From NCBI RefSeq assembly GCF_014191545.1, contig NZ_AP023361.1, positions 834,501-898,500 on the forward strand: a stretch of DNA of 64,000 nt. The letters are read 5' to 3'. Origin of the DNA: Terrihabitans soli. Lineage in GTDB: Bacteria > Pseudomonadota > Alphaproteobacteria > Rhizobiales > Methylopilaceae. A program made the position numbers and the translations under genes. The notes under the pieces are model-generated. The model made no database searches. It saw only the letters and a program-made list of their open reading frames with translations, and was not told the origin of the DNA. Shown here in pieces: positions 42,686 through 49,258 of this stretch. Positions within the stretch are counted from its first letter, which is position 1; each line of letters starts with the position of its first letter.

Positions 42686-43612
42686 ATGCCGGAAACGACC
42701 GCAGGCCCTCTCAACCCGACCAAGTCCTTTCAAGGACTTATCCTCACCCTCCAGACCTTCTGGGCGGCGAAAGGCTGCGTCATCCTGCAGCCCTATGACA
42801 TGGAAGTGGGGGCGGGCACGTTTCACCCGGCGACGACCTTGCGGGCGCTGGGTCCGAAGCCCTGGAACGCGGCCTATGTGCAACCCTCGCGCCGTCCCAA
42901 AGACGGCCGCTATGGCGAGAACCCCAACCGGTTCCAGCACTATTACCAGTTTCAGGTGATCCTGAAGCCGAACCCGCCGAACCTGCAGGAGCTCTATCTG
43001 GAGTCGCTGGCGGCGATCGGCATCGACACCAAGCTTCACGACATCCGTTTTGTCGAAGACGACTGGGAAAGCCCGACGCTCGGCGCCTGGGGGCTCGGCT
43101 GGGAATGCTGGTGCGACGGCATGGAAGTCTCGCAGTTCACCTACTTCCAGCAGGTCGCGGGCGTCGAATGCTCGCCCGTTTCGGGCGAACTGACCTACGG
43201 CCTCGAGCGCCTCGCCATGTACCTACAGGGTGTCGACAACGGCTTTGAGCTGAACTTCAACGGGCTCGACGGCGACAAGAAGGTCACCTACGGCACAGTG
43301 TTCAAACAGGCCGAGGAGGAATTCTCGCGCTACAATTTCGAGCATGCCGATACCGAAATGCTGTTCCGCCATTTCCGCGATTATGAAGCCGAATGCCAGT
43401 CCCTGCTGAAAAAGGGCGACAAAGGCGAGCGCCATGAACTGGCGATGCCGGCCTACGATCAGGCGATCAAGGCGAGCCATGTGTTCAATCTTCTGGATGC
43501 GCGTGGCGTGATCTCGGTGACCGAGCGGCAGAGCTATATTCTGCGCGTGCGCGAACTTGCCAAAGCCTGCGGCGCCGCCTGGCTGAAGACCGCGGAAGGC
43601 GGCGCTGTCTGA
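42686..43612 (+). CDS. glyQ: Glycyl-tRNA synthetase alpha subunit
   Basis: 308 residues. Bacterial alpha2-beta2 GlyRS catalytic subunit. Diagnostic blocks are [57 protein letters not shown] and [19 protein letters not shown]. It charges tRNA-Gly together with GlyS. The stop shares one base with the glyS start. Confidence 0.97.
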
Positions 43613-45642
43613 TGCCCGATCTTCTGCTTGAACTTCTGTCCGAAGAAATCCCGGCCCGCATGCAGGCGCGTGCCGCCGAGGACCTGAAAAAGCTCATCAC
43701 CGACGCCCTGGTCGAGAGCGGCCTGACCTATGAGGGCGCCAAAGCCTTTGCGACGCCGCGGCGTCTGGCTTTGACGGTTCAGGGCCTCCCGGGCCGTGCG
43801 CCCGACCGCAAGGAAGAGCGCAAGGGGCCGCGCGTCGGCGCGCCCGACGGCGCCATTCAGGGTTTTCTGAAAGCATCAAACCTCAAGGATATTTCGCAGG
43901 CGAAAGTCCAGAACGATCCGAAGGGCGATTTTTATATCGCCGTCACCGAGAAAAAGGGCGGCGCGACTGACGAGATCGTCGCCGACATCGTGCCGAAGAT
44001 CGTGCGCGAATTCCCCTGGCCGAAATCCATGCGCTGGGGCGAGGGGACCTTGCGCTGGGTGCGCCCGTTGCAGAGCATTCTCTGCACGTTCGGGACATCG
44101 AATGAAGAGCCGGAGGTCGTGCGTTTCGATGTTGACGGCATCCAGTCCGGTAATACGACCGTCGGCCACCGCTTCCTTGCGCCCGGCGTCATTACGGTCC
44201 GCCGTTTCGACGATTACGTTCCGGCGCTGGAAAAGGCCAAGGTCGTGCTCGATCCGGCGCGGCGGCGCGAGATCATCCTCAACGAAGCGCGCAACCTGGC
44301 CTTCGCGCAGGGGCTCGAACTCGTCGAGGACGAGGCGCTGCTCGATGAGGTCTCGGGCCTTGTCGAATGGCCGGTCGTTCTCATGGGCTCGTTCGACGAG
44401 AGCTTTCTCGACGTGCCGGATGAGGTCATCCGCACGACGATCCGCGCCAATCAGAAATGCTTTGTTTTGAGGAAAGGCGACAAGCTCGCCAATAAATTCC
44501 TGCTCGTCTCCAATCTCGAAGCGAGTGATGGCGGCAAGGCGATCATCGCCGGCAATCAGCGCGTCGTGCGCGCCCGCCTGTCGGACGCCAAATTCTTCTG
44601 GGAGACGGACAAGCGTATCAAGCTGGAAGAGCGCGCCAAGAAGCTCGAACAGATCGTCTTCCATGAGAAGCTCGGCAAGCAGTCCGAGCGCGTCGAACGC
44701 ATCGCAAAGCTTGCCAAGGAACTCGCGCCGCTTCTCGGCGCCGATCCGGCGAAGGCCGAACGCGCGGCAAAGCTCGCCAAGGCCGATCTTGTGACCGAGA
44801 CCGTCGGCGAATTTCCGGAAGTGCAGGGCACGGCGGGCCGCTATCTTGCGGCCATTCAGGGCGAGGACGCCGAGGTCGCGGAAGCAATCGGTGATCATTA
44901 CAAGCCTGCGGGGCAGGGCGACCGCGTGCCGGTATCGCCGGTGGCGATTGCCGTGGCGCTGGCCGACAAGCTCGATACGCTGACCGGTTTCTGGTCGATC
45001 GATGAGAAGCCGACGGGCTCGAAGGATCCGTATGCGCTGCGCCGCGCGGCGCTCGGCGTTATCCGCATCGTGCTCGAGAATGGACTGCGTTTGCCGCTGT
45101 CTGAGCGCGCGAATGCCGATCTCATCTCCTTCTTCGCCGACCGCCTGAAAGTGCAGCTGCGCGATCAGGGTGCGCGGCATGACCTTGTCGATGCCGTGTT
45201 TGCGCTCGGCAATCAGGATGACCTCGTTCTGATCGTCCGCCGCGTCGAAGCGCTTGCGGCCTTCCTCGGCACAGATGACGGCAAGAACCTGCTCGCCGGG
45301 CAAAAGCGCGCGGCCAATATTCTCCGCATCGAGGAAAAGAAGGACGGGGAAGGCGTGTTCGATAAGGCGCCCGATCCCGGCCTTGTGCGTGAAGTCGAAG
45401 AGAGCGATCTCATCGTCGCGCTCGACCATGCCGAGACGGCGGCGCGCGATGCCGTGCACAAGGAAGATTTCGAAGCCGCCATGCAGGCGCTGTCGAAACT
45501 TCGCGCGCCGGTCGATGCGTTTTTCGACAAGGTGACGGTCAATGCCGATGAGGCGAAGCTGCGCGCCAACCGGTTGAAGCTCCTGGCGCGCCTGCGGGCG
45601 GCAACGCGGACCGTGGCCGATTTCTCGAAAATCGAAGGCTGA
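43612..45642 (+). CDS. glyS: Glycyl-tRNA synthetase beta subunit
   Basis: 676 residues, the expected size. N-terminal [22 protein letters not shown], core [20 protein letters not shown] and [18 protein letters not shown] are typical. The C-terminal region ([38 protein letters not shown]) is the anticodon-binding domain. It binds tRNA and completes the heterotetramer. Confidence 0.97.
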
Positions 45643-45770: not shown

Positions 45771-45815
45771 CCAACCACATGCGGCTAAACGGCCGTAAAT
45801 CGAGAGGAAATGCCC

Positions 45816-45956
45816 GTGGAGATAAACATCGTCACGCTGCAGCCCATCATCGCCCTGATCGCGGGCGTTCTTATTCTCATAATGCCGCGGCTGCTCAACT
45901 TTATCGTGGCGATCTACCTGATCTTCATCGGCCTTTCCGGACTCCTCGGCCATTAG
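45816..45956 (+). CDS. DUF3096 small membrane protein
   Basis: 46 residues from the GTG at 45816 (GAGAGG eight bases ahead), or 48 from an ATG at 45810. The sequence is two short hydrophobic helices, VTLQPIIALIAGVLILIMP and LLNFIVAIYLIFIGLSGLLG, joined by a Pro-Arg turn. This is the DUF3096 pattern LQPIxALIAGxLILIMPRLLN. The function is unknown. Expression under general stress is implied by the promoter motif. The next gene starts 26 bases later. Confidence 0.75.
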   Translation: MEINIVTLQPIIALIAGVLILIMPRLLNFIVAIYLIFIGLSGLLGH

Positions 45957-45981: not shown

Positions 45982-46284
45982 ATGGAACGTTATGAACAGG
46001 ACCCCGTCGATCGCAAAATCGACAACACCTACGTCGAGACCTCGTCCGATTCGGGCGTGACCTGGTTCATCGTCGGTGCGCTGGTGATCGCCGCGGGCGT
46101 GCTCGCCTATCTGTACTTCGGCGATGATGCGGCCAATTCGACGGCCGAGACGGCGCCGCCGGCCATTGAGGCTCCGGCCGATACGGGCCGCGCTTCGACC
46201 CCGGCCGCTCCGGCCGAGCCTGCGGCTCCGGTCGAACCGGCTCCGGCTCCGATGGCTCCTCCGGCGGCGCCCCCGGCACCGTAA
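45982..46284 (+). CDS. Single-pass protein with Pro/Ala-rich tail
   Basis: 100 residues. A polar N-terminus (MERYEQDPVDRKIDNTYVET) leads to one helix (GVTWFIVGALVIAAGVLAYLYF), and then a 48-residue low-complexity tail of Ala, Pro and Glu (PAAPAEPAAPVEPAPAP). The tail would reach through the periplasm. It is probably co-transcribed with the DUF3096 gene under the EcfG-type promoter. A Shine-Dalgarno AGAGG lies ahead of the ATG. Confidence 0.7.
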   Translation: MERYEQDPVDRKIDNTYVETSSDSGVTWFIVGALVIAAGVLAYLYFGDDAANSTAETAPPAIEAPADTGRASTPAAPAEPAAPVEPAPAPMAPPAAPPAP

Positions 46285-46307
46285 AGGCACAGTATCAAGG
46301 TTAAGAG

Positions 46308-46341
46308 ACGGCCGGCGGGCAACCGCCGGCCGTTTCTCTTT
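46308..46341 (+). terminator. Strong terminator after the two small stress-linked genes
   Basis: ACGGCCGGCGG (46308-46318) pairs with CCGCCGGCCGT (46323-46333) across a GCAA tetraloop, followed by TTTCTCTT. The 11-bp GC-rich stem isolates the PPDK-like gene from upstream transcription. Confidence 0.85.
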
Positions 46342-46413
46342 GTCGGATCACCGTAAGCCGCCATATTCTGCCTCTAGAAGCATTCGAGGTCGCCAAGACC
46401 CAAGGAAGAGAGC

Positions 46414-48105
46414 GTGCGCAGCGATCCCATGGAGGATGGGGAGCCAAGACCGAAGATTCGGGCGAAGGCCATTTCGCGGCCGATGTCGACCGCGACAGCG
46501 GTGCCGCAGAGCCGTGCCGCGGCCGTGCTGCATTTCGCCGTCGAGAAGGTCAAAGCCGGGCTTCTGACGCGCGAAGAGGCGCTGCTCGAAATTCCGGCGC
46601 TGATGCTGGATGAGCTTCTCCATCCGATGATCGATCCGGATTTCCAGCGCTGCGTGATCGCGCGCGGCCTGCCGGCTTCGCCCGGCGCGGCCTGGGGTGA
46701 AATCACCTTCTCGCCCTCGCAGGCCGAGCGCCTGAAAGAACAGGGACGCCCCGTCATTCTGGTGCGGGTCGAAACCAGCCCCGAAGACATTCACGGCATG
46801 CACGCCTCAGCCGGCATCGTCACGGCGCGCGGCGGCTCGACCTCGCACGCCGCCGTCGTTGCCCGCGGCATGGGCAAACCTTGCGTCACCGGCGCGGGCG
46901 ATATCCGTGTCGATGAGCGCAAAGGCACGATGTCGGCCGGCGGCATGACGCTGAAGACCGGCGACATCATCACGATCGACGGTACGGCGGGGCAGGTGCT
47001 GGAAGGCGCAGCCCCCATGACCGAGCCGGAACTGCCGCCCGATTTCACCACCGTGCTCGGCTGGGCGGATTCGATCCGCAAACTGCGCATCCGCGCCAAT
47101 GCCGACACGCCCGCCGATGCATCTGCCGCGCGCCGTTTCGGCGCCGAAGGCGTCGGTCTGTGCCGCACCGAGCATATGTTCTTCGACGCCAAGCGCATCC
47201 GCGCCGTGCGCGAAATGATCCTCGCCGAAACCGGGGAGCGGCGCCGCGCATCGCTCGCGACGCTTCTGTCGGTGCAGCGGCAGGACTTTGCGGAAATGTT
47301 CCACATCATGGGCGGGCTGCCGGTGACGATCCGTCTGCTCGATCCGCCGCTGCACGAGTTCTTACCGAAGAGCGATGAGGATTTTTCCGAGATCGCGGCA
47401 AATCTCAAAATGTCCGAAGAAAAGATGCGCCGCCGCTCGCAGGAGCTCGACGAGTTCAATCCGATGCTCGGCTTCCGCGGCTGCCGTTTGGCCATCGCTT
47501 ACCCTGAAATCGCCGAGATGCAGTCGCGCGCGATTTTCGAAGCGGCGGTCGCCGTCGAAAAGGATATGGGCAAGCCGGTCCAGCTTGAGATCATGGTGCC
47601 CCTCGTTGCCACGCGCTCGGAGCTCGATGTCGTCAAAGCGCGCATCGATGCAACGGCGGAAGCCGTGCGCCGCGAGACGGGCGCCGATGTCAAATATCAG
47701 GTCGGCACGATGATCGAGCTGCCGCGCGCCTGCATCGCCGCCGGCGAGATCGCCAAAAGCGCCGAATTCTTTTCTTTCGGCACCAACGATCTGACGCAGA
47801 CGGCCTTCGGCATGTCGCGCGACGATGCCGGAAGCTTTCTCGGCCAATACATATTGAAGGGCGTCCTGCCGGCCGATCCGTTCACTTCGATCGATGTCGA
47901 GGGCGTCGGCGAACTCATCGCCATTGCGGTGGAGCGCGGCCGCAAGACGCGTCCCGATCTGAAGCTCGGCCTCTGCGGCGAGCATGGCGGCGACCCGGCC
48001 TCCATCGCCTTCTTCCACAAGACGGGCCTGACTTACATTTCCTGCTCGCCCTACCGGGTGCCGATCGCGCGCCTTGCCGCCGCCCAGGCGGTTCTCAGGG
48101 GCTGA
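46414..48105 (+). CDS. PPDK-like PEP-utilising protein lacking the ATP-grasp domain
   Basis: 563 residues against about 875-900 for pyruvate, phosphate dikinase. It aligns with the last about 563 residues. A linker (LTREEALLEIPALMLDELLHP) leads to the phosphohistidine domain with His145 in GGSTSHAAVVARGMG, then the PEP/pyruvate TIM barrel with GVGLCRTEHMFF, MIELPRACIAAGEIAKS, FSFGTNDLTQTAFG and catalytic Cys521 in GLCGEHGGDP. The roughly 310-residue N-terminal ATP-binding domain is absent, and no remnant is seen upstream, where a terminator closes the preceding genes. The GTG at 46414 has AAGGAAG ahead. It may phosphorylate its own His from PEP, as enzyme I does, or need a partner for ATP. 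Confidence 0.85.
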   Translation: MRSDPMEDGEPRPKIRAKAISRPMSTATAVPQSRAAAVLHFAVEKVKAGLLTREEALLEIPALMLDELLHPMIDPDFQRCVIARGLPASPGAAWGEITFSPSQAERLKEQGRPVILVRVETSPEDIHGMHASAGIVTARGGSTSHAAVVARGMGKPCVTGAGDIRVDERKGTMSAGGMTLKTGDIITIDGTAGQVLEGAAPMTEPELPPDFTTVLGWADSIRKLRIRANADTPADASAARRFGAEGVGLCRTEHMFFDAKRIRAVREMILAETGERRRASLATLLSVQRQDFAEMFHIMGGLPVTIRLLDPPLHEFLPKSDEDFSEIAANLKMSEEKMRRRSQELDEFNPMLGFRGCRLAIAYPEIAEMQSRAIFEAAVAVEKDMGKPVQLEIMVPLVATRSELDVVKARIDATAEAVRRETGADVKYQVGTMIELPRACIAAGEIAKSAEFFSFGTNDLTQTAFGMSRDDAGSFLGQYILKGVLPADPFTSIDVEGVGELIAIAVERGRKTRPDLKLGLCGEHGGDPASIAFFHKTGLTYISCSPYRVPIARLAAAQAVLRG

Positions 48106-48176: not shown

Positions 48177-48193
48177 GTGACTTGTTCAGTCAC
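48177..48193. promoter_or_regulatory. Inverted repeat upstream of the cell wall hydrolase gene
   Basis: GTGAC (48177-48181) and GTCAC (48189-48193) are separated by seven bases. It lies 37 bases ahead of the chosen start at 48230. The arms are short but exactly complementary, and a dimeric regulator could bind here. No known regulator is assigned. Confidence 0.35.
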
Positions 48194-48229
48194 CAAAAAC
48201 CAAGCGTATGCGTGGGGTTGCGTCTGTTA

Positions 48230-49258
48230 ATGCGTTTGTTGCGTTGCGTAGCGTTGCGTCCGCTCGGCAGTATGGCTCTTGGAGGGCTGTTGCTTGCGCC
48301 GACGGCGGTCGCCTTTCAGGATGCGGCAGCTTTTGCGCCGCCCGACGCTGCGCCGCGCTGGCTCTCCTATTTCGCCTATGATCCGCAGACCCCCGACACG
48401 ACGGCGCAGGCCGCCGGGAAAGTCGAGCTTGCTTTCGCCGGTTTCGTGATCCGCCAGGCCGAACCCGAATATATTGCGCCGAAGCGCGAAAGGGTGCCGC
48501 TACCGCCGAGCCTTGCGGCGCGCTTTGCCATCGCCTTTCCCGATGACAGGGCCCTCGAAGCCTTCACCGGCTATGGCGCCTATGCCGAAGCCTCGCCTCC
48601 GGCGGCGCCCGCCGACACCACAAACATCACCGCGCCCTCAGACGGTGCGACGCCGACCGCTCTGGCCGCAACCTCGCTGACGCCGTTCGAGGAGATCACC
48701 AATTACGAGGTCGCGGCGCTGCCGGTCGATCCGCAGCATCCCGTCGATCCCGACATCACCGGCAGTATCGGCGCTCCGGCAGCTGAGCTTCCGATGCCCG
48801 ATCCCGAAGCGGGCTTGAGCCTTGCTTTGCAGGGCGAGGATCTCGGCAAGGCGAAGCAGTGTCTTGCGGAGGCGATCTATTTCGAAGCCCGCTCGGAGCC
48901 GGAAAAAGGTCAATACGCCGTCGCGCAGGTCGTGATGAACAGGACGCGCACCGGCTATTATCCGGCGACGGTCTGCGGCGTCGTCTACGAGAACAAGAAC
49001 CGGCGCAATAGCTGCCAGTTCTCCTTCGCCTGCGACGGCAAGCCGGACCGCGTGCGCGATCCGAAAAGCTGGGCGACTGCCCAGCGCATCGCCGACGACG
49101 TCCTTATGAACGGCGCCTATCTGCCGGATATCGGCACCTCGACGCATTATCACGCGACCTATGTGCGGCCGCGCTGGGTCCGCGACATGACGGACCGCCA
49201 CCGCCTCGGCACGCATGTCTTTTACCGCGTGCGCAACTGGTCGGACGAAGGCGTCTAG
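48230..49258 (+). CDS. SleB-like cell wall hydrolase (Hydrolase_2)
   Basis: About 342 residues. The signal segment (PLGSMALGGLLLAPTAVA) is followed by a Pro/Ala-rich spacer of about 190 residues, then the Hydrolase_2 domain: KQCLAEAIYFEARSEPEKGQ (catalytic Glu), QVVMNRTRTGYYPATVCGVVYE, CQFSFACDG and THYHATYVRPRW. SleB-type enzymes are lytic transglycosylases or amidases acting on peptidoglycan. The start is uncertain: in-frame GTG 48212 and TTG 48182 also exist. It follows the PPDK-like gene. Confidence 0.88.
   Translation: MRLLRCVALRPLGSMALGGLLLAPTAVAFQDAAAFAPPDAAPRWLSYFAYDPQTPDTTAQAAGKVELAFAGFVIRQAEPEYIAPKRERVPLPPSLAARFAIAFPDDRALEAFTGYGAYAEASPPAAPADTTNITAPSDGATPTALAATSLTPFEEITNYEVAALPVDPQHPVDPDITGSIGAPAAELPMPDPEAGLSLALQGEDLGKAKQCLAEAIYFEARSEPEKGQYAVAQVVMNRTRTGYYPATVCGVVYENKNRRNSCQFSFACDGKPDRVRDPKSWATAQRIADDVLMNGAYLPDIGTSTHYHATYVRPRWVRDMTDRHRLGTHVFYRVRNWSDEGV

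Follow-up and report, generated by a model that had tools for sequence, protein, structure and literature searches.

The open reading frame at 46414 to 48105 of the window (by which we mean the whole 64,000-nucleotide stretch analyzed) encodes a 563-residue protein related to pyruvate, phosphate dikinase (PPDK) but lacking its ATP-grasp domain, with the same start and stop as given in a first-pass annotation of this DNA. The features of the locus are as follows.

42686 to 43612, forward strand: glyQ, neighboring gene (NCBIfam, locus comparison)
43612 to 45642, forward strand: glyS, neighboring gene, found close to PPDK in 13 of the 25 loci compared (NCBIfam, locus comparison)
46296 to 46342, forward strand: hairpin, U-rich on its 3' side, that probably terminates the gene before it (folding)
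46360 to 46367, forward strand: GCCATATT, putative promoter-like element, 47 to 59 nt upstream of the GTG in all four congeners
46402 to 46410, forward strand: Shine-Dalgarno-like AAGGAAGAG before the GTG start (sequence)
46414 to 48105, forward strand: coding sequence of the ATP-grasp-less PPDK, 563 aa, GTG start (domain searches, alignment; short in all four congeners)
46510 to 46650, forward strand: retained linker helices, residues 33 to 79, where PPDK homology starts (TIGR01828 from 338; helices in the model)
46651 to 47013, forward strand: phosphohistidine swivel domain, residues 80 to 200 (PF00391; the genus keeps 98% of the columns invariant in intact PPDKs)
46840 to 46848, forward strand: T143-S144-H145, equivalent to T453-S454-H455 of C. 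symbiosum PPDK (alignment, residue table)
47014 to 48093, forward strand: PEP/pyruvate-binding domain (PF02896; the genus keeps 97% of the columns invariant in intact PPDKs)
47974 to 47976, forward strand: Cys521, equivalent to C831 of C. symbiosum PPDK (alignment, residue table)
48182 to 49258, forward strand: cell wall hydrolase (Hydrolase_2, SleB-like), start codon uncertain, in 18 of 25 loci (domain match, locus comparison)

Two small genes lie between glyS and the short ppdK, one for a 48-aa DUF3096 protein (45810 to 45956) and one for a protein of 100 aa whose tail is rich in Pro and Ala and which has no Pfam match (45982 to 46284). The first-pass annotation had named the glyQ, glyS and hydrolase neighbors correctly, and for the ribosome site it gave the gene there is a Shine-Dalgarno-like sequence. 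Its strong upstream terminator is supported as probable by a strong hairpin (-35.3 kcal/mol, z -6.5), which is absent from the calls of a simple terminator scan.

Domain content and structure model

Pfam searches of the 563-aa protein returned PF00391 (residues 113 to 193) and PF02896 (residues 212 to 559), with no further domain at an E-value of 0.001. The NCBIfam model TIGR01828 matches from position 338 of 865 with a score of 784.2 bits, under its curated PPDK equivalog cut-off of 843.45, and the alignment to C. symbiosum PPDK (2dik) runs from chain residue 336 to near the C-terminus; together, these two starting points place the beginning of the short protein at the linker past the ATP-grasp domain. 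From about residue 79 onward the offset against 2dik is constant (309 in chain numbering, 310 in full numbering), so that His145 corresponds to H455 and Cys521 to C831, in line with the C-terminal PPDK portion and the offset of about 310 proposed at first pass. Identity to solved PPDKs is 48 to 54% over about 530 columns. The swivel domain contains the T-S-H motif, and the PEP-binding domain contains equivalents of R561, R617, E745, N768 and C831, located by the alignment offset and numbered, with their catalytic roles, as in PPDK.

An AlphaFold2 model of the short protein has a mean pLDDT of 89, with residues 1 to 30 below 50, and forms helices in the linker at residues 34 to 47, 53 to 59 and 62 to 69. 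Its best structural matches are PPDKs, namely 2r82 (TM 0.91, 1.8 Å) and 5jvl_C (1.5 Å), while it differs from 1kbl and 1dik by 10.9 Å. Given the conformational states that we presume for these entries, we read the modeled swivel domain as docked at the PEP site. The docked state is partly a consequence of leaving out the ATP-grasp domain; a model built without that domain would favor it in any case.

Conservation in the genus and position at the ppdK locus

We searched 121 genomes with the 563-aa protein, and 113 matched at an E-value of 1e-80. The genus is sampled by four genomes, three of them drafts that are 93 to 98% complete. Their open frames measure 575, 601, 631 and 704 aa, whereas the gene of the sister genus (G005) is full length at 908 aa; the extra length in the genus lies upstream of a GTG start common to all four, which is followed by a V-R-[SNT]-[DE] N-terminus and preceded at 47 to 59 nt by GCCATATT. 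In all four, TIGR01828 begins at 338 to 340. The same search returned other short frames in G017 (361 aa; same family, other genus, 88% complete), in G073 (431 aa) and, at a contig edge, in G019 (498 aa).

Across the six pairs within the genus, dN/dS is 0.106 to 0.173 at dS 0.67 to 1.27 (Nei-Gojobori, about 500 codons), and the six pairs among four full-length PPDKs from the family, compared over the corresponding half, give 0.139 to 0.228. Because all four congeners are short, share the GTG start and are under this level of constraint, an assembly artifact or frameshift, which had been proposed as a way to refute the short form, is not the explanation; these data confirm that the short form is real, and the stable design suspected earlier is borne out. 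A decaying leftover that looks intact because the loss was recent would agree with the missing ATP-grasp domain and with the state of genome G079 (f16, single contig), in which neither a PPDK (E ≤ 1e-20) nor the PPDK regulatory protein (PDRP) was found. We give this explanation hardly any credence in view of the dN/dS values of 0.11 to 0.17 in the four genomes, the retention of 97 to 98% of the invariant columns in the His and PEP domains, and the common start and upstream element.

The genome of the window (3.11 Mb, one contig) contains two PEP-utilizers_C genes, the short PPDK and an 800-aa enzyme I, and no full-length ppdK copy was found in it. We sought the neighbors of the window in 25 loci of unequal length; 13 had glyS close to PPDK, and 18 had the hydrolase. 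The loci with glyS include two congeners (L113, L114), loci with full-length genes (G005 and two from Bradyrhizobium), and ATP-dead forms (defined below) of f6, f70, f191 and G225. We did not find glyS near the PPDK of L115 (same genus), of L117 and L118 (full length, same family) or of five of the seven named loci, which suggests an arrangement that is old and often broken. These comparisons support the view that the short gene stands at the ppdK locus shared with the full-length ppdK of relatives. The usual ppdK position named at first pass is thus real without being universal, and of the two options offered there, replacement or duplication, replacement fits.

Loss of the ATP site in other alphaproteobacteria

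To survey other lineages, we used the full-length G005 PPDK as query against genomes at least 90% complete, and obtained matches at an E-value of 1e-60 in 393 of 397 genomes of the order and 309 of 387 of the class. From the per-genome E-values we picked by eye 72 weak or odd genomes, which were searched again with coordinates. In all 25 genomes of family f6 the match begins no earlier than residue 252; G383 (f16, a 280-contig draft) carries a 548-aa form that starts at the linker (TIGR01828 from 340); and both f191 genomes have frames of 697 to 719 aa. Residue-level comparison added f70, f43, G025 (f9), two pairs in f23 and part of f51 to the list.

We read six ATP-side positions (K22, R92, D321, E323, Q335 and R337) in 79 aligned PPDKs. 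K22 and R337 are named in PDB titles; R92, D321, E323 and Q335 are taken as further ATP-side positions of PPDK, and the spacing agrees once known gaps are allowed for. Forty-five rows read KRDEQR, one has one change, three have two changes, and 30 have at least three changes or no domain; we call these 30 dead. All 30 keep H455, R561, R617, E745, S764, N768, D769 and C831. Such retention is no proof of turnover. Among named organisms, 76 of 80 loci read KRDEQR, the other four being cut at the locus start.

Decay was scored over the columns in which at least 42 of the 43 intact PPDKs agree (140 in the ATP-grasp domain, 15 in the linker, 48 in the His domain and 144 in the PEP domain). The genus keeps 7% of the ATP-grasp and 65% of the linker columns, beside the 98% and 97% given above for the His and PEP domains. 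Nine other dead or borderline groups keep 2 to 65% of ATP, 73 to 92% of His and 78 to 98% of PEP columns. For the borderline groups f51 (65% of ATP columns; three residues changed in G067, two in G103) and f23b (58%), the ATP percentage alone is no test, since similar values are seen in f164 (61% of the ATP and 73% of the PEP columns), a group judged intact, and in f23c (G169, G367; 64% and 81%). Loss or ruin of the ATP-grasp domain next to an intact PEP half thus recurs in several alphaproteobacterial lineages. This recurrence, and the loss of PDRP described below, go beyond the first-pass annotation.

The 0.8-Mb genomes of f164, whose partial matches had made them candidates for a further loss, were removed from consideration, as ATP-grasp was found in all three; G601 has six of the six signature residues, G518 has five, and G733 is outside the alignment. 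The ATP-dead PPDK at L156 (G059, f43) scores 844.3 against the TIGR01828 cut-off of 843.45, so that automatic annotation would likely label this ATP-dead form a true PPDK.

An ATP-grasp half encoded elsewhere might join these proteins in trans, as the first-pass annotation had also considered. Two-component dikinases of this kind are reported (HpeHI; PMC12167813), and PPDK_N (PF01326) regions occur elsewhere in five dead-form genomes (G383, G684, G225, G616 and G067). Profile searches for this one family found no PF01326 over cut-off in any of the four congeners, the genome of the window included (one match in G001 had an E-value of 0.35, below cut-off), and the same search recovered the PPDK of the sister genus. 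Likewise, none was found over cut-off in 17 of 17 f6, two of two f191 and two of two f43 genomes; one f43 protein, scanned alone, has a remnant at 26.9 bits against a cut-off of 27. The result in the four genomes counts against a partner protein from this ATP-grasp family, and we regard a split dikinase as very unlikely.

Two of the PPDK_N regions lie within long frames, G383:C5:3705-4283 in one of 1253 aa and G684:C2:206353-206871 in one of 1351 aa, in genomes whose own PPDK has no working ATP-grasp.

The PPDK regulatory protein and the state of the ATP site

PDRP is reported to inactivate and activate PPDK via an active-site threonine in bacteria that harbor PPDK (PMC8100219). PDRP (PF03618) was not found in any of the four genomes of the genus and was found in all 13 other family members tested; in the wider search, it is present in 44 of 80 genomes. 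By ATP-side signature, PDRP is present in 44 of 45 full-signature rows (the exception is G601) and in both tested two-change rows, and absent in the single one-change row (G518) and in 25 of 25 tested rows with at least three changes, counts that are inflated by relatedness; five dead rows (G156, G183, G382, G269 and G189) stand outside this count. G169 and G367, with two of the six residues changed, keep PDRP, while it was not found in G067 of f51, with three changed, or in 14 of 14 f6 genomes.

Control genomes were chosen before their PDRP state was known, and 28 full-length sequences, all PDRP-positive, were added afterwards; apart from f164, no full-signature PDRP-negative genome was knowingly omitted. 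Among full-length-type controls, with G039, G169 and G367 included, 39 of 41 have PDRP. The two negatives are G067 and G304, the latter with no PF01326 found and its sequence not in the table.

Within families, the contrasts agree in three of three cases: in f1, the four short forms are without PDRP and the 13 others have it; in f16, G383 is without it and G032, G114, G141, G254 and G375 have it; and in f23, G225 and G376 are without it and G358 has it. On a tree of 77 PEP-half rows, from which the long branches G039 and G025 were left out, we counted at least six changes of ATP state, two of them forced by starred branches, and the independent-pairs test gave one pair on starred branches, in the same direction over most pairings and not significant. 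An earlier tree of 51 rows gave three starred-branch pairs, two the same way, one with no difference and none opposite (p = 0.5); long branches meet in both trees. In these comparisons, loss of the ATP site mostly goes with loss of PDRP, and the co-loss, with few exceptions, fits a PDRP that serves the ATP-linked reaction. PDRP loss is not strictly tied to ATP-site loss: it was not found in f164 (three of three), where ATP-grasp was found, or in f114 (two of two), whose short PPDK is the ATP half. The threonine targeted by PDRP is kept in the genus; it is replaced by L in G225 and G376, by N in G072 and by S in G022, G183 and G025.

A proposed PEP half-reaction and its candidate acceptor

Since the ATP site is gone and the PEP site remains, the protein would most simply run the PEP half-reaction and pass the phosphate to a different acceptor. 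Judging from sequence, we consider it probable (roughly 60%) that this ppdK descendant, reduced to its PEP half, acts as a PEP-driven phosphohistidine transferase, not as a dikinase, with an acceptor other than ATP. Its sole reaction would be PEP + enzyme-His145 <-> pyruvate + enzyme-His145~P, and the phosphoryl group would then pass to a presumably dedicated acceptor other than AMP, PPi or ATP. The AMP/ATP/Pi half-reaction should be impossible in the absence of the ATP-grasp domain. Deletion mutants of C. symbiosum PPDK made in 1995 reportedly showed that each half catalyzed its own partial reaction. More broadly, the products of the dead-form genes probably transfer phosphate from PEP to an acceptor that is not ATP.

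In the genus, the first candidate acceptor would be NPr/HPr. We found HPr in 36 of 40 genomes, including four of four of the genus, nine of nine of f6, five of five of f70, two of two of f43 and all controls; it was not found in G665 or in f164 (three of three), and was weak and partial in G728. With this distribution, HPr is neither a mark of the dead forms nor available to every one of them, and as G665 and G728 carry another ATP-dead form, HPr as a general acceptor is ruled out. Moreover, the 800-aa enzyme I of the genome of the window (L001) is of the PtsP type, with GAF and PEP-utilisers_N domains, so that HPr is already served, which counts against the proposed function. The proposal made at first pass, that the protein takes phosphate from PEP as enzyme I does, stands as the best guess that sequence allows, short of a demonstration.

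No acceptor candidate was evident among the neighbors of the short ppdK, a point that also speaks for a regulatory pseudo-enzyme or PEP/pyruvate sensor, in which His145~P would be the signal, or PEP would simply be bound, and the output would come by protein contact. There are reported precedents in VadK, which fine-tunes the methylcitrate cycle (PMC13400623), and in the PEPut domain of Bacillus subtilis PykA, which affects replication via a TSH motif (PMC9009071). Such a role is possible, although we think it unlikely: the catalytic residues of the PEP site, needless for pure binding, are kept in all 30 dead rows.

A bypass that consumes PEP would need no partner at all. Phosphohistidine is labile, and if His145~P were simply hydrolyzed, the enzyme would be a PEP phosphatase giving pyruvate. 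This would waste PEP, and pyruvate kinase was found in three of the four congeners, G002 being the exception, and in 31 of the 32 genomes searched that carry a dead or borderline form; with pyruvate kinase so widely present, no bypass is called for, and we hold this option to be improbable. Loss of pyruvate kinase as a reason for keeping the gene likewise gave no signal, as 60 of the 62 genomes have PF00224, G002 and G020 being the two in which it was not found.

Comparison with known systems

The short protein resembles PPDK (EC 2.7.9.1) in its sequence, in its PEP-side residues and in standing at the locus of the full-length ppdK of relatives; it differs in being short and without ATP-grasp, in scoring under the TIGR01828 cut-off, and in belonging to a genome without detected PDRP. 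With enzyme I (PtsI/PtsP) it shares homologous PEP-binding and His domains, a similar length and the character of a PEP-driven phosphohistidine protein, but it is without the PEP-utilisers_N domain (PF05524) that L001 has, and it is far closer to PPDK (Foldseek TM 0.91 to PPDK 2r82 versus 0.54 to enzyme I 2hwg). HpeH is likewise reported to combine a swivel and a substrate domain in a chain that has no ATP-grasp; unlike the short protein, it is paired with HpeI as its ATP-grasp subunit, and its substrate domain has a different fold (PMC12167813).

A further parallel is VadK (Rv1127c) of Mycobacterium tuberculosis, reported as a truncated PPDK that has lost its PEP domain, autophosphorylates from ATP and has a regulatory role (PMC13400623). 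In both proteins one substrate domain is lost and the phosphohistidine domain kept, and the missing domain is reported to have no gene in the VadK genome and was not found, as PF01326, in that of the window; VadK is the mirror image, however, in that it keeps the ATP domain and is ATP-driven, whereas the short protein could only be PEP-driven. Among the titles and abstract openings of the open-licence literature, we found no PPDK without ATP-grasp, VadK being the reverse case, and one that shows that such a mirror form matters for regulation. The short protein is best filed as a conserved ATP-grasp-less PPDK variant and not as PPDK, enzyme I or a split dikinase.

By sequence matches, f70 is probably Rhodobacterales. 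Its best plasmid matches come from Pseudorhodobacter turbinis, at 64.7%, and from a Paracoccaceae strain, at 52.1%. The P. turbinis protein keeps the E323 motif and has no Q-x-R motif, as in f70, and in the Paracoccaceae gene (LA6_005527), annotated as pyruvate, phosphate dikinase, the ATP motifs are absent by eye. Dinoroseobacter shibae, Phaeobacter gallaeciensis and Roseobacter denitrificans are, we presume, also Rhodobacterales. In the first two, ppdK is annotated and labeled glucose is reported to have given no PEP from pyruvate (PMC2761930); in R. denitrificans on labeled pyruvate, the pyruvate-to-PEP flux is reported as weak, which its authors tie to low ppdK expression (PMC2749216). With the proteins of these three species outside our comparison, the link of the flux data to a dead ppdK is only suggestive, as the pyruvate-to-PEP flux might be off on glucose anyway.

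We put forward tentatively, at somewhat less than even odds, that alphaproteobacteria have repeatedly converted ppdK to serve as a PEP-driven phosphohistidine relay, neither a dikinase nor part of the PTS and with its own acceptor, and that the Rhodobacterales 'ppdK' is included. In such an evolution, the ATP half would decay or be deleted, the PEP half would stay under selection and PDRP would be discarded. If true, this would explain the absent pyruvate-to-PEP flux in 13C work on Rhodobacterales; ppdK-annotated genes of several families, probably including Rhodobacterales, may then lack the reaction that models assign to them, and flux models of such bacteria should bar pyruvate-to-PEP conversion via an annotated ppdK.

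Forms that keep the ATP half

The survey also returned VadK-like mirror forms, with frames of 485 to 573 aa that match only the ATP-grasp and His part, in f12 (G028, G075, G111 and G139), f91 (G445, G550, G630, G697 and G758) and f114 (G711 and G771). PDRP was found in both f12 genomes tested and in three of three of f91. A full-length protein in G039 (L138) has an intact ATP signature and a dead PEP site (E745A, N768D); its decay runs in reverse, with 94% of ATP and 49% of PEP columns kept, and the G039 genome carries two PDRP genes.
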